A DNA stretch of 52,056 bases. Source: Betaproteobacteria bacterium. GTDB lineage: Bacteria; Pseudomonadota; Gammaproteobacteria; Burkholderiales; SG8-41. The notes under the pieces were generated by a model. The model did not search any database. It worked only from the letters and a program-made list of their open reading frames with translations, and was not told the DNA's origin. Position 1 is the stretch's first letter; each line of letters begins with the position of its first letter. The stretch covers positions 1-52,056 of the forward strand of contig CANJQI010000010.1 in NCBI GenBank assembly GCA_947476215.1, given 5' to 3'. This document shows, one piece after another, positions 46,601 to 52,056 of this stretch. The position numbers and the translations under genes were made by a program.

Positions 46601-48010
46601 TTACGCCGGTCTTGGAGGCCACACCGGTTTGCTGTGGCCGAGCGGTACCGAGGGCCGCGCCCAGTAGGGTTGGGTTTCGGACAGGCGCAACACCGGCCGC
46701 AGATGGCGTAACTGCGCGAACGGCGATTCCGTGGTCATGGACCAGCGTTCGAGTTCCTCGGGTGTGAATTCCTTGGGGATGTTCTTGAGTTGGTCCTCTG
46801 GCACTTGGCCGCGTTCAACCAGCCAGCGCCCGACTTGCGCCAGTGAGATGCGCACCAGCCAGCTGCCGCCCTCGCGCGTGCGGCGTGCAAGGGCGATCAG
46901 TGCGCCGAACGCCATCAGATAGCCCGCCAGTATGTCGATCGCCGCCGACGGATAGAACTGCGGGCCCGGCGTGGCGCCGGGAAACAGCTCACCCTGACGG
47001 TTGGTGAGGCCGGTGACCGTTTGCACTACGGTATCGAAGCCGCGACGCGATGCCCACGGCCCGACGTGGCTGAACGCGGACAGCGAAACGTAGACGATGC
47101 CAGGGCGCAGTTTTGCGAGTTCCTCGGGCGACAGACCGCGCGAGCCCAGTGTGCCCGGACGGTAGCCCTGCGAGAACACGTCGGACTCGCGGATCAAGCC
47201 GCGTATCGTCTCCATGTCACTTGGATCGCGCAGATCGAGATGAGCATTCAGCTTGCCATGGCCGGTTTCATATTCCTGCTGGCCCAGGCTCGGCAGGTGC
47301 GGTGCAGTGATCTTCATCACGTCCGCGCCGTGTTCGGCGAGCGTGCGCGCCCCGATGGGACCGGCGACTACGCGCGTCAGATCGAGTACGCGTATGCCGG
47401 ACAACGGCCGATCGCCGGCGGGAAGTTTTTCCGGCGCACTGTCTCCGATCTTGATCACTTCCATCAGCGGCAACGAAGCCACCGCAGCCGCTTGTGGATG
47501 CAGCGCCCATTCGGCCATGGTGCGAACCATGCCGCCTGCACCGTTGGCGGCGAGGATGGCTTCTTCAAGTTCGAGCGCGTCCCATTGCGATACGGCCTTG
47601 CGCACCGCTTCGCGGTCTTCCGGTACGCCGAGCACGCGCAGCGCGGCGGCGCGATGATTGGGAAAGTTGCAGTGCAGATAGCTCCAGCGACCGTTCTTCG
47701 CCGGATAGACACCCATGATCGTATGGTGTTCGAACCCCAGGTTTCCGTTGACGCGTATGTAGTTCATGGTACGCAACGAGGCGGTTGCCTGCCGGGTATC
47801 GACCGCGACCGTCTGTTGCCTTCCGGTACGGATTTCCCACAGGTCGGAAACGGCGAGCCCTATGGCGGCGTGTACGGCGGAGCCCGTTTCACCGATGCGA
47901 AACGGCGTAGGCAAAATCGGATCGGTGCCGCCGGAAATATCAACGCCGCGGAGCCGGTCTTCCTTCCATCCGGCGATCGGTAGCAATGTGCGCAAGGCAT
48001 CTATGGACAT
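46601..48010 (-). CDS. class III CoA-transferase with duplicated half-domain at the N terminus
   Basis: 469 residues from the ATG at 48010 (MSIDALRTLLPIAGW); a frame open from 48061 has no better signal. The first 200 residues resemble the later part of a CaiB/BaiF domain (SAVHAAIGLAVSDLWEIRTG then RQQTVAVDTRQATASLR) but without the catalytic Asp. The canonical N-terminal Rossmann part then starts at about residue 202, LSGIRVLDLTRVVAGPIGAR, with the catalytic aspartate at D359 in SAAIDILAGYLMAF. The protein is thus a degenerate tail plus a full head, and could form one active site per chain. It is the first gene of the minus-strand run that includes Nudix, Bug and the enolase-superfamily enzyme. 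Confidence 0.88.
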   Translation of the reverse strand: MSIDALRTLLPIAGWKEDRLRGVDISGGTDPILPTPFRIGETGSAVHAAIGLAVSDLWEIRTGRQQTVAVDTRQATASLRTMNYIRVNGNLGFEHHTIMGVYPAKNGRWSYLHCNFPNHRAAALRVLGVPEDREAVRKAVSQWDALELEEAILAANGAGGMVRTMAEWALHPQAAAVASLPLMEVIKIGDSAPEKLPAGDRPLSGIRVLDLTRVVAGPIGARTLAEHGADVMKITAPHLPSLGQQEYETGHGKLNAHLDLRDPSDMETIRGLIRESDVFSQGYRPGTLGSRGLSPEELAKLRPGIVYVSLSAFSHVGPWASRRGFDTVVQTVTGLTNRQGELFPGATPGPQFYPSAAIDILAGYLMAFGALIALARRTREGGSWLVRISLAQVGRWLVERGQVPEDQLKNIPKEFTPEELERWSMTTESPFAQLRHLRPVLRLSETQPYWARPSVPLGHSKPVWPPRPA

Positions 48011-48079
48011 GGTGAACTTCTCAACGTTGTATGAAGGTTGATGAATTATTGAACTTTCCAATATTCATAATATTCAGCG

Positions 48080-48207
48080 GTCATTCCGGTGAAAACCGGA
48101 ATCCAGAATGGTTAGCGAGGTTCCCAACAGTGTTACCGGGCCCCGGTGTCCACCGCGACGACGATAGCTTTATACGGGCGTGTCGCGAGATATGGAAAGC
48201 ACAATAA
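48080..48207 (+). repeat. dispersed 127-bp repeat, copy 2
   Basis: Matches the copy at 34665-34791 in order and orientation, from GTCATTCCGGTGAA to AAGCAC-x-ATAA, with scattered substitutions and one extra base. It fills the 320-bp gap between the CoA-transferase start and the Bug gene at 48331. The 123 bp after it contain no recognised promoter or gene. The hairpin TTCCGGT-GAAA-ACCGGAA is kept. Confidence 0.82.
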
Positions 48208-48330
48208 GGATAACACGGGAAAGGTAGCTCAGCGCACTCATGGACACTTCAGTTTTCCGGTCAGAGGAGTAACATCCGACCGATGGCGCACGATGCAGAA
48301 TGCAATTGCAAGAATAATGTGGAGACTGTC

Positions 48331-49317
48331 ATGCAAATGTCCAGGCACTGGAAATTGATTTCGATATTGTTTGCTGGAGTCACCGTTCAGGGATATGCAC
48401 CTGCGTCCTTGTCGCAAAGTTATCCGGCCAAACCCGTCCACATCGTCATCGGATACCCGCCCGGCGGTGGCACCGACGCGACTGCGCGCCTGATTTCGCA
48501 GAAGCTGTCGGAAAGCTTCGGTCAACCGGTCGTGGTCGAGAATCGACCGGGCGCGAGCGGCTTGATCGCGATCGAAAAAGTCGCCCAGTCGGCTCCCGAC
48601 GGTTATACGCTCGTACTGATTGCATCGTCCAGCATACTCGCCCATGCATTGTCACCCGCGCCCAGCTTCGATTTCGAGCGCGATCTGGCACCGATATCGC
48701 TGGCGACCGTGCAGCCTTTTGTGTTGCTCGTGAATCCTGTGCTGCCGGTACGAACCGTCAAGGACCTGGTCGCGCTTGCTCACAGGCAACCGGGCAAGTT
48801 GAATTACGGCTCGTCAGGCGTAGGCGGCGCATCGCATCTGGCAGGTGAATTATTCCATTTGCTGGCCAAGGTGAAGCTGGTGCATGTCCCTTATAAAGGT
48901 GGCGGCGAAAGTGTCGTCGCGGTTGCGGCCGGTCAGATTGAATTGACTTTCGCCAGTTCCACATCGGCCCTGCCTTTGCTCACGTCCGGCAAGCTCAGGG
49001 CCTTGGGGGTGACCACCCCCAAGCGCACTTCGCTGTTGCCGGCGGACGTGCCCACGCTCGCCGAGTCGGGTGTTCCTGGATACGACCACGTCGTTTGGTA
49101 CGCGATACTGGGGCGCACGGGTATGCCCGGTGACATGGTCACGCGGCTCAATTCGACGCTAGCGAAAATCGTCAATACCAGCGAAATGAAGGAGTCGTTC
49201 AGACGGCAGGGGCTGGAGGCTCAAACCAATACGCCGCCGCAGCTGGCAGCGCTGGTCAGAGAGGAGTTCGTTAAAAATGCGAATCTGATCAAAGCCGCCA
49301 ACCTGAAGAGCGAATAG
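48331..49317 (+). CDS. Bug/TctC-family periplasmic solute-binding protein
   Basis: 328 residues from the ATG at 48331 (MQMSRHWKLISILFAG), with GGAG 7 nt upstream; the frame is open from 48283 but earlier residues are not signal-like. Signal peptide ends near PASLSQ, then SYPAKPVHIVIGYPPGGGTDATARLI. Motifs: FDFERDLAPISLA, NPVLPVRTVKDLVALAHRQ, HVPYKGGGESVVAVAAGQI, TGMPGDMVTRLNSTL. The selenoprotein gene follows 18 bp after its stop on the same strand, and a second Bug gene follows that. The three form the tightest cluster in the right part of the window. Confidence 0.92.
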   Translation: MQMSRHWKLISILFAGVTVQGYAPASLSQSYPAKPVHIVIGYPPGGGTDATARLISQKLSESFGQPVVVENRPGASGLIAIEKVAQSAPDGYTLVLIASSSILAHALSPAPSFDFERDLAPISLATVQPFVLLVNPVLPVRTVKDLVALAHRQPGKLNYGSSGVGGASHLAGELFHLLAKVKLVHVPYKGGGESVVAVAAGQIELTFASSTSALPLLTSGKLRALGVTTPKRTSLLPADVPTLAESGVPGYDHVVWYAILGRTGMPGDMVTRLNSTLAKIVNTSEMKESFRRQGLEAQTNTPPQLAALVREEFVKNANLIKAANLKSE

Positions 49318-49335
49318 CAAGGAAGGAGCCCGGCA

Positions 49336-50961
49336 ATGCCTGAAACGGTAAGAGTCTACAATCCGACGCCGACACGTCGCTCGCAGCTGCAGCGGACCAG
49401 CCTTCCGACTGTAACGTTCAAGGGTCTGATGGTCGGCTTCATCGACAATGCGAAACCGAACTTCGACCATCTCGTCGAGGATCTGACGGGATTGTTGGCC
49501 AGCCGGCACGGTATCGCGGGCGCCATCACGCGCAGAAAACGTATCGCCGGTATTCCATCGCCGCAGGATATTCTGCGCGAACTCACCCGTCAGTGCGGGT
49601 TGGTGATCATAGGCTCGGGCGATTGAGGGTCCTGCACGTCGTGGAGTATCCACGACTGCATAGAGGTGCGTAAACTGGGCGTGCCGTCGCTGGCCATAGT
49701 CACTGCCGAGTTCATCACGCTCGCACGCGCTCAGGCCACCGCGTTGGGGCATTCTGATCTTCCGATCGCGGTGATTCCGCATCCGCTGGGCTCGCGTGCA
49801 CGAGAGGAGGTGCGTGACATCGCCGAACAGCATGTCGATGCCATCGTCGCGCTTGCTGTCGCGGGCGCAGGCGGCGAGGCGCAAATCTCATCAAACAAAA
49901 CAAATGGTTATCGTGTAGGTCACGAGGCAGCTTTTGACTTGGCCGATGACGATAGCGCGATCAACAAGCGCTTCCGCGAGCGAGGATGGGGCGACGGCCT
50001 GCCGGTATTTGCGCCCACCGCAGCACGCGTGGACGAAATGTTGGGTTGTGTGCGGCGCGACAGACACGATGTCATCGCCCGCATTGCGCCGGGTTTCGGA
50101 GAGGCGACGGTCGAACTCATCGCGGTTAATGCGGTGATGGCGGGATGCGATCCCGAGTATCTGCCCATCGTGATCGCAGCGGTCGAAGCGGTTGCGGCGC
50201 CTGAATTCAATTTGCAGGCGGTGCAGTCCACAACCAACGCCGCGACCGCGTGGCTGATCGTGAATGGCCCTGCGGTCGAACAGCTCGGTATCAATGCCGG
50301 CAGCAATTGCCTGGGGCAGGGTAGCTGGGCCAATGCAACGCTGGGGCGTGCATTGCATCTGATCATGCAGAATGTGGGAGGGGCACGTCCGGGCGAGATG
50401 GACCAGGCGACTCAGGGCCAACCGGGCAAGTTCACTTTCTGTTGTGGCGAGCAAACCGCCGGGCACCCGTGGCAACCACTGCACGTTGAACGCGGCTATG
50501 CCGAAGATACCAGTACCGTAACCGTGGTGGGTGCATCGGGAACCTTGAATATGTTGAGCAGCGAGAAAGACGCGCGGCAGTTGTTGCGCGTGTTTGCGGA
50601 CAGCATGCGCTATCCGACCAGCAATGATTACTGGTGCGGCGGCGCGCCATGGATCGTCATTGGTCCGGAACACGCGGCCATATTGGGCGGCGCCGGCATC
50701 AGCAAGGCCGAAATTAAACGCGAGCTCTGGGAACAATCGAAAATGGCGGCGAACCGCCGCGCGCCCGGCGACATCGCACGCACGCAGGATGCGCGTCGTG
50801 AAGAGTTGGGCAAGATTACGCCGGAAACCTTGCTGCCGATATCGCCTTGCGCCGAGGACATCGGCATCATCGTCGCGGGCGGGTCGGGTTTGCATTCCGT
50901 GTACGTGCCGACGTTCGGGAATACGCGATCGGTGACACGCAAGGTTGATGGTTTCCGCTAA
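49336..50961 (+). CDS. UGSC-family selenoprotein (in-frame UGA read as selenocysteine), fused to a C-terminal domain
   Basis: One frame of 541 codons: 96 sense codons, TGA at 49624-49626, then 444 more to the stop at 50961. The TGA is flanked by VIIGSGD and GSCTSWSIHDC, so reading it as selenocysteine gives U97-G98-S99-C100, the UGSC redox motif that names a selenoprotein family of thioredoxin-like CxxC type. The first domain (about 1-185) ends with HVDAIVALAVAGAGGE. A second, larger domain (about 200-541) begins RFRERGWGDGLPVFAPT and contains VNAVMAGCDPEYLPIV, FTFCCGEQTAGHPW and YWCGGAPWIVIGPEHA; no function is known to me. Conventional calling would give a 96-residue protein plus a gene from GTG at 49666. 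Gaps of 18 and 20 bp join it to two Bug genes. GGAAGGAG lies 7-8 nt before the ATG. Confidence 0.85.
49624..49660 (+). promoter_or_regulatory. UGA selenocysteine codon with bacterial SECIS-like hairpin
   Basis: Right after TGA (49624-49626) the RNA can form a stem: TGCA at 49633-49636 pairs with TGCA at 49657-49660, C at 49637 is bulged, and GTCGTGGA at 49638-49645 pairs perfectly with TCCACGAC at 49649-49656. This leaves a GTA apical loop (AGTAU if the last A-U pair opens). The loop begins 20 nt after the UGA and its first base is G. Bacterial SECIS elements lie within the coding region just after UGA, with an apical loop roughly 16-37 nt away and an early G, so the fit is good. SelB would bind here to deliver selenocysteyl-tRNA. 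Confidence 0.8.
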
Positions 50962-50981
50962 GCCCTTCAAGGAGTTCGCCT

Positions 50982-51950
50982 ATGAAGAACAGGGAAGTTG
51001 CACGCGCTACGGTATTTTTGAGCCTGACACTATGCTCCAGCATCGTACACGCTGCCGAATATCCGGAACGCCAGATTACCGCCATCGTTCCGTATGCGGC
51101 GGGGAGCACGACCGACATCATTGCGCGCATTATCAGCCCGCCGCTTTCCAAAGCGCTTGGACAACAGGTGATCGTGGTCAATCGCGCGGGCGCGGACGGA
51201 CGGATAGGTGCGGAAGCGATGGCCAAAGCCGCGCCCGATGGATACACGATCGCATTCAACGGCGGGGCCATGTCGTTGACGCCCGCGGTGCGCAAGAATG
51301 TGCCGTGGGATCCGGTAACCCAGGTTCAGCCGGTAGCGCAACTGGGCGGCAGCCCGTACATCATCGCGGTCAATCCCAGCGTACCAGCCAACAATCTGGC
51401 CGCTTTCCTGAATATCGCGAAAAAGTTTCCGGGGAAACTAAACGCTTCAATCGGAGGCGACGCAACGGGTATGGCGCTTGCGCTGTTTCAGATCCGCAGC
51501 GGAGTGCGTGCGGAAGCCATTGCGTATAAGGGTACCGGTCTCGCAGGCGTCGCGGTTGCCAGCGGTGAAGTCGACTTCGCCATCCTGAATGTCCCGGCCT
51601 GGGTGCCGTTTATTCCGTCGCGTCGCGTGCGCGCGCTGGCCGTGTCCAGCGAAAAGCGGTTGCCTGCGTTTCCAGACATTCCAACCACCGAGGAAGCCGG
51701 GCTTCGGGATTTCAAGGAGGGCGCGATGTTCGGCATCTATATGACAGGCGGGTCGCCGATCGGCGCCGCACGCCGCATCAATGCCGAGGTCAACAAGCTA
51801 CTCGCCATGCCGGAGATCATCAAGAGCCTGACACAAGCGGAACTGGAGCCCAACCCGAAAAGTGTCGAGCAGTTCACTCGCATCTATCTCGATGATCTTG
51901 CCAAGTGGAAGGAAGTGGTGTCGCGAGCGAAGATTCCGTTAATGGATTAA
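50982..51950 (+). CDS. Bug/TctC-family periplasmic solute-binding protein
   Basis: 322 residues; AAGGAG lies 8 nt before the ATG and overlaps the region after the selenoprotein stop. Signal peptide ends IVHAAE (about residue 25), then YPERQITAIVPYAAGSTTDIIARII. Loop 1 is VPYAAGSTTD, with Ser in place of the second Gly. Other motifs: VPWDPVTQVQPVAQL, NPSVPANNLAAFLNIAKK, AIAYKGTGLAGVAVASGEV, TGGSPIGAARRINAEV. It is clearly different from the Bug at 48331, so the selenoprotein gene lies between two distinct binding proteins. Confidence 0.92.
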   Translation: MKNREVARATVFLSLTLCSSIVHAAEYPERQITAIVPYAAGSTTDIIARIISPPLSKALGQQVIVVNRAGADGRIGAEAMAKAAPDGYTIAFNGGAMSLTPAVRKNVPWDPVTQVQPVAQLGGSPYIIAVNPSVPANNLAAFLNIAKKFPGKLNASIGGDATGMALALFQIRSGVRAEAIAYKGTGLAGVAVASGEVDFAILNVPAWVPFIPSRRVRALAVSSEKRLPAFPDIPTTEEAGLRDFKEGAMFGIYMTGGSPIGAARRINAEVNKLLAMPEIIKSLTQAELEPNPKSVEQFTRIYLDDLAKWKEVVSRAKIPLMD

Positions 51951-52048
51951 CGTTAACAATTGTGCGCTTGCAAGGACTGGAAAATTATCGGCAAAATTCA
52001 CGGCATTCATTTATTATAGCCAGACTAGACAGAATAAAAAGGGCGACA

Positions 52049-52056
52049 ATGAAGGC
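52049..52056 (+). CDS. start of a gene running off the window
   Basis: ATG at 52049 followed by AAG GC, with AAAGGG 6-7 nt upstream. The 98 bp before it (51951-52048) are AT-rich compared with the window and could hold a promoter. Only two codons are visible, so the product is unknown, and the start rests on the ribosome site alone. Confidence 0.35.

Follow-up and report, generated by a model that had tools for sequence, protein, structure and literature searches.

The question raised by this locus is whether a TGA inside an otherwise open frame ends a small gene or is read as an amino acid. In the window, i.e. the whole 52,056-nucleotide stretch of DNA that was analysed, translation table 11 gives two open reading frames in one shared frame, 49336-49626 (96 aa) and 49666-50961 (431 aa). 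When TGA is read as selenocysteine (U), a single 541-aa frame appears at 49336-50961 on the forward strand, with ATG at 49336, the stop TAA at 50959-50961, and the TGA of codon 97 (49624-49626) as the sole interruption; AGGAAGGAG, spotted by eye, lies 7 bases 5' of the ATG. Around Sec97 the translated protein reads VIIGSGDUGSCTSWSIHDC. The original prediction had pointed to two open stretches in one frame, parted by TGA and followed by Gly-Ser-Cys, and to the consequence that standard calling would report a stop and two small proteins; both statements agree with what was found here. As judged from the sequence, this TGA almost certainly codes for selenocysteine, and the two small predicted genes are one enzyme. 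That the gene encodes a selenoprotein and that this protein has a two-domain anatomy is, as a joint claim, highly probable. The following features were assigned to the locus and its neighbours:

48283-49317, + strand: TctC receptor gene, upstream (PF03401, 215.6 bits)
49336-50961, + strand: predicted gene of a two-domain UGSC selenoprotein, 541 aa, Sec at codon 97 (frame, Pfam, conservation in paralogues and relatives)
49354-49854, + strand: UGSC domain (residues 7-173), predicted flavodoxin-like fold (PF24696, 154 bits; model; structural matches)
49624-49626, + strand: TGA, predicted Sec97 (translation, paralogue alignment, TGA in the best relatives)
49633-49635, + strand: codon of Cys100
49633-49660, + strand: predicted SECIS-type hairpin (synonymous freezing, pair counts, fold of the window copy)
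49930-50958, + strand: C-terminal domain (residues 199-541), without a Pfam model, putative substrate domain (paralogue alignment; profile, sequence and structure searches)
50982-51950, + strand: TctC receptor gene, downstream (PF03401, 186.4 bits)

Assignment to the UGSC family, also a part of the prediction, was confirmed by the Pfam model PF24696, which scores the window protein far above its curated cut-off of 25 bits (U scored as C), and residues 97-100, UGSC, present the Sec-Gly-x-Cys motif of this family. The cut-off of the UGSC_fam equivalog model NF041046 was just missed (123.7 vs 125 bits, with C substituted for U), so the protein was not filed under that model. The family was described in 2008 in the GOS survey, the available parts of which report 255 Sec against 21 Cys forms and already contain a fusion of UGSC to a second conserved domain, Unknown_1 (PMC2398784). 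The window gene shares with the GOS family the domain match, the U-G-S-C motif, the great excess of Sec over Cys and the fusion to a second domain. The window gene is therefore a new member of the UGSC family in a most unusual genome, while the family itself, its motif, the rarity of Cys and the fused form were known before.

Conservation around the TGA was examined in paralogues and in relatives. Fourteen more fused paralogues from this genome, which share 32-56% identity with the window protein, keep the residues flanking the TGA, and D96, U97, G98, C100, S102, W103, H106 and D107 are invariant in the alignment of all 15 fused proteins. When one genome was scanned for each species, the site codon was TGA in 80/80 of the best 80 of 231 relatives, to which the Sec/Cys state refers, and the frame continues past it. 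Thus, homologues of the joined protein do carry U at position 97, as had been expected, and the contrary outcome, with homologues all ending there or bearing an unrelated residue, did not occur among these 80. The TGA form of the pattern D-x-G-x-C-T-S-W occurs in 27 of the 399 genomes of the order, with 23 occurrences in the genome studied here; exact matching of its Cys form alone gave none in the same 399 genomes, and the TGA pattern read backwards, used as a control, gave none either. One relative (L102) has two further stops besides the site TGA. The source titles of the relatives name mostly Betaproteobacteria or Burkholderiales. Fourteen relative records are titled Bordetella parapertussis and three Chitinophaga pinensis (L103, L107, L111, L115, L117 and others), and these look like mislabelled environmental bins.

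The genome also possesses the machinery for selenocysteine insertion. It was predicted that selA, selB, selC and selD should be present, and all four were found: selC (74.1 bits; called by ARAGORN as tRNA-SeC with anticodon tca), selB (446 bits, with SelB domains) and selA (SelA, 536 bits) lie together on a single 8.1-kb contig, and selD (424 bits), which has an in-frame TGA of its own, lies on a separate one. The interval between selC and selB holds a TrxR-like pyridine nucleotide-disulphide oxidoreductase gene (L055, 434-1351, contig C221), whose product is a possible reductase for the selenoproteins.

A bacterial SECIS is a hairpin placed right after the UGA, with a guanosine in a small apical loop (PMC1088965). 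On sequence evidence alone, the window gene shows both features. The upper stem, 49638-49645 with 49649-49656, starts 12 bases past the UGA and consists of 8 bp closed by a three-base loop (49646-49648) whose first base is G; the lower stem pairs 49633-49636 with 49657-49660. To assess selection on this stretch, 143 distinct TGA contexts (52 from this genome and 91 from the loci of relatives) were divided by the residues after the motif into classes of 112 and 31. In the window class (n=112), the ratio of synonymous variety used to that allowed was 0 at codons +5, +7 and +8, 0.07 at +9, 0.20 at +4, and 0.37 at +3 and +10, codon +6 being Trp, which cannot vary; the remaining variable codons from -18 to +23 gave 0.50 to 0.97. 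By these counts, codons +3 to +10 are frozen more than the amino acids require.

Pairing in the window class amounted to 99.3% of cells, with changes on both sides in 6 cells, all at one pair; five of the eight pairs are invariant and hence uninformative on covariation, and a register slid by +3 beats the proposed stem on that measure (0.068 vs 0.031). In the second class, a different stem sequence occupies this position, with 96.7% of cells paired and both-side changes in 5 cells at two pairs, in counts (A3) that refer to 20 of the 31 sites, picked for a common residue pattern, the other 11 having other stems. The window hairpin taken alone is not exceptional against shuffles (z -1.87; 12/200 fold equally well), two more hairpins are likewise unremarkable, and some copies (e.g. 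C25, C121, C104, C136) take other minimum-free-energy folds. Our covariance model R1 gives 64.4 bits at the window site, which belongs to its training set, a weak match at a GrdB-like TGA (11 bits, E 0.21), and no match at E 1 at selD and at the two U-P-N-C sites described below. A search with Rfam at E 10 over 48000-52056 yielded five matches, all under the gathering scores and none of them a SECIS. It is the frozen synonymous sites, together with two unlike stems at one position, from which we conclude that the codons after the TGA form a predicted hairpin of the bacterial SECIS type.

The reading of the TGA as a true stop, parting a 96-aa gene from a separate 431-aa gene that begins with GTG at 49666 in the same frame, agrees with the table-11 calling of exactly this pair but is hardly credible, in view of the conserved GSCTSWSIHDC between the TGA and 49666, a stop that is always TGA and no other in 80/80 (best 80 of 231 relatives), the frozen synonymous sites behind it and the full sel gene set. 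Gene fission at the TGA was rejected on the conserved flanks, the same 80/80 in the best 80 of 231, and the frozen codons; genome-wide recoding of TGA was rejected as well, as TGA also serves as the terminator in 28 of the 52 UGSC frames that contain a single inner TGA.

With the TGA taken as a selenocysteine codon, the number of such genes in this genome (5.75 Mb in 326 contigs, 98.46% complete, 1.17% contamination) becomes the next problem. The window protein has 80 matches in it, many with one inner TGA, and Pfam UGSC has 58. Fifty UGSC genes, including C104, which continues past its contig end, are open save for one TGA; four further TGA-bearing genes, in five rows, are broken (C307, C37, C45, C7), and one fragment lacks the Sec region (C158). 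Two fused UGSC-type paralogues (L080 and L081, on C76 and C80) carry Ala at the Sec position and Thr at the Cys position; as read from their sequences, the redox pair was lost there and not swapped for Cys. The motif in the 52 frames is UGSC in 30, UGGC in 12, UGAC in 7 and UGTC in 3. Their closest pair is only 73% identical (median best match 62%), which indicates that these genes are paralogues and not copies from different strains. All 15 genomes examined from the genus contained UGSC matches, with 7 to 58 per genome (our genome has the most, the next 31), and so did 74/74 genomes of the family, with from 1 to at least 40 in each.

The fifty copies might also arise as an artefact of mixed assembly, several strains or species having been placed in one bin. 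The division into 326 contigs would allow this, and co-assembly is named as a risk in the available part of a 2026 review, with regard to another MAG rich in selenoproteins (PMC13188914). We regard this explanation as very improbable, because no UGSC pair exceeds 73% identity, TGA-bearing copies share contigs (six on C27, four on C11, three on C14), the contamination estimate is only 1.17%, and UGSC occurs throughout the family; on the first three of these grounds, strain mixture was rejected as the main cause of the copy number.

The paralogues also inform on the second domain. In 33 of the 50 genes the frame runs beyond 450 aa into it, and the 17 others are stand-alone UGSC genes, each of which (17/17, coordinates compared by hand) adjoins a C-domain ORF on the same strand; for C25, the C-domain match continues in-frame after the TAA. 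The fusions and the adjacent pairs argue that the two domains belong together. At E 10, UGSC was the only Pfam family to match more than 1/15 fused members, and NCBIfam gave weak matches to the C-domain set (best E 0.005, 3/66; sample A5, made of 53 of the best 80 relatives, 12 C-domains of this genome and the window). Sequence searches of solved structures found no credible relative, the best E being 0.43 for the fused protein and 0.06 for the C-domain. The C-domain model is confident (pLDDT 91.7); its top Foldseek match was 7xky_A, a chain of class I fumarase, at E 2e-4, with a TM of 0.27 relative to the query and an rmsd of 15.7. VIA gave Z of at most 5.6, and with matches so poor we claim no fold for it.

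For the N-terminal domain, the AlphaFold2 model (mean pLDDT 79) shows a flavodoxin/CheY-like arrangement of five strands, with U97 immediately ahead of the helix after strand 3. The best VIA match was 8s7v_H (Z 12.8, rmsd 3.2, 135 aligned), the next being response-regulator receivers, and Foldseek gave a single match below E 0.001. The matches of this modelled domain are matches to a common fold. Chains of thioredoxin fold were absent among the 50 VIA matches listed, an absence that excludes nothing.

GrdB and PrdB (PF07355) are the selenocysteine-containing subunits of glycine reductase and D-proline reductase, respectively. They resemble UGSC proteins in having UxxC followed by a conserved helix, and differ from the window protein in the order of domains, its Sec being near the N-terminus. 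A TGA-bearing gene of the GrdB family occurs in the same genome (L165, 1501-2553, contig C148; 364 bits): its PF07355 match stops one residue before the in-frame TGA, which GTCTRCG follows, and the Pfam GRDB model seems to end at the Sec site. Weak matches to this model with U-P-N-C are found in the same genome (L166 and L167, on C52 and C99, where the match is shorter than in L165) and in other genomes of the order (L168-L171, with U-P-V-C in L171); judging from their sequences, L166-L171 are probable further selenoproteins. Pfam GRDB itself matches neither the window protein at E 0.001 nor any of the 15 fused members at E 10.

With Sec aligned on Sec, hhalign probability reached 95.3 for the second (B) class of UGSC against the GrdB family, 90.9 for both classes against that family, and 93.2 for class B against a single GrdB; the window's class alone gave 34.7, and its comparison with the UPNC set 0.2. 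The UGSC profiles contained 49/52 domains of this genome (the slices from C23, C307 and C37 held a stop, in C23 at the natural end), and the GrdB-family profile seven sequences. Reversed and TctC profiles, used as controls, stayed below 0.5, and shuffling the columns 100 times while keeping the motif gave 54.2 at best, with a median of 2.0. When the motif was masked the three scores fell to 79.5, 22.6 and 19.2, so much of the GrdB profile signal comes from the motif. Remote homology between the UGSC Sec domain and the GrdB family is thus plausible from sequence profiles, not proved.

A separate problem is the relation of UGSC genes to TctC-type receptors, between two of which the window gene lies. 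Fifteen receptor stretches of this type occur in the 52-kb window (1844-51941), and the genome holds at least 150, an extreme expansion by sequence count. Near the UGSC genes of relatives, TctC density is 0.50-0.57 per kb in the first kilobase vs 0.16-0.29 further out, a TctC gene just downstream is on the same strand in 39/43 cases, and a TctC-like ORF lies no more than 3 kb away from 74 of the 91 UGSC sites. The idea of TctC as a dedicated partner is weakened by the 15 stretches in the window and by the background of 0.16-0.29 per kb past the first kilobase, and the pairing may be incidental. Among 74 other co-directional neighbour ORFs, the top families were alpha/beta hydrolases (7), MmgE/PrpD (5), aldo-keto reductases (4) and HpcH/HpaI (3); from their annotation, the UGSC neighbours belong to varied carboxylate and ester catabolism, with no single pathway.

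What the enzyme might do can be outlined as follows. Judged from the sequence, the ribosome almost certainly decodes the UGA of codon 97 as Sec, guided by the predicted in-gene SECIS hairpin and using the SelB and tRNA-Sec that this genome encodes. Sec97 and Cys100 would make a pair of selenolate and resolving thiol at a helix N-terminus in the flavodoxin-like domain, the substrate being bound by the C-terminal domain. As was proposed for GrdB and PrdB, the selenolate could attack an activated carbon, the C-X bond of an imported carboxylate would be cleaved reductively, and the Se-S bridge would be re-reduced by a thiol system, perhaps with the TrxR-like gene by selB. On this view, the roughly fifty paralogues would act on many different substrates. 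In the accessible part of a 2023 review, the glycine and D-proline reductases are presented as rupturing selenium-carbon bonds (PMC10298544). A GrdB-like operon was proposed to reduce fluoroacetate in Cloacibacillus, and its Sec protein FarB, in the text available, to cut the C-X bond of this small carboxylate (PMC10838667); kinship of UGSC to FarB runs through the GrdB family only, and a substrate of the FarB kind is conjectural for UGSC. Owing to the weak motif-masked profile controls, substrate-specific reductive cleavage of imported carboxylates by UGSC proteins is put forward tentatively, as a possibility short of a probable reading.

The main rival is a selenoprotein with a general thiol or peroxide redox role, of thioredoxin type, instead of a substrate-cleaving reductase, and its chance is somewhat less than even. 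Thioredoxin-type selenoproteins have, like UGSC, UxxC at the start of a helix, the TrxR-like gene adjoins selB, and the 2008 survey, in the parts available, guessed at a Trx-like fold and a redox role (PMC2398784). However, the modelled N-terminal domain is a five-stranded flavodoxin-like sheet with a strand order unlike that of thioredoxin, and specialisation for substrates accounts more readily than a general redox duty for about fifty diverged paralogues that carry a large second domain.

Returning to the reductase reading in its widest form, UGSC might represent another branch of chemistry of the GrdB/PrdB type, in which a Sec domain is joined to an undescribed substrate domain. Duplication would have led to about fifty substrate-specific selenoreductases that work alongside at least 150 TctC receptors, and the selenoproteome, drawn almost wholly from one family, would rank among the largest recorded; taken as a whole, this is doubtful. 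Four families counted give 54 probable selenoprotein genes (50 UGSC, SelD, one GrdB-like, two UPNC). The largest bacterial selenoproteomes named in the available part of the 2026 review have 57 and 63 genes (PMC13188914). A survey of more than 5200 bacterial genomes lists UGSC, in its accessible portion, with 26 and 33, read here as organisms and sequences (PMC5029168), against about fifty UGSC genes in one genome here. Among open-licence PMC papers (listings and passages), none was found on fifty UGSC genes per genome or on the GrdB link, and a term search of the available text of the deep-Sep paper gave no occurrence of UGSC.

The scale of copying matters most in these findings, and the UGSC genes themselves are split at the Sec codon by gene callers. 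The GrdB link, if true, would give the UGSC family, whose function has so far had no assignment, a testable chemistry. If its members act as reductases specific for their substrates, much of the carboxylate metabolism of an uncultured betaproteobacterial family would be selenium-dependent and hidden by standard annotation.
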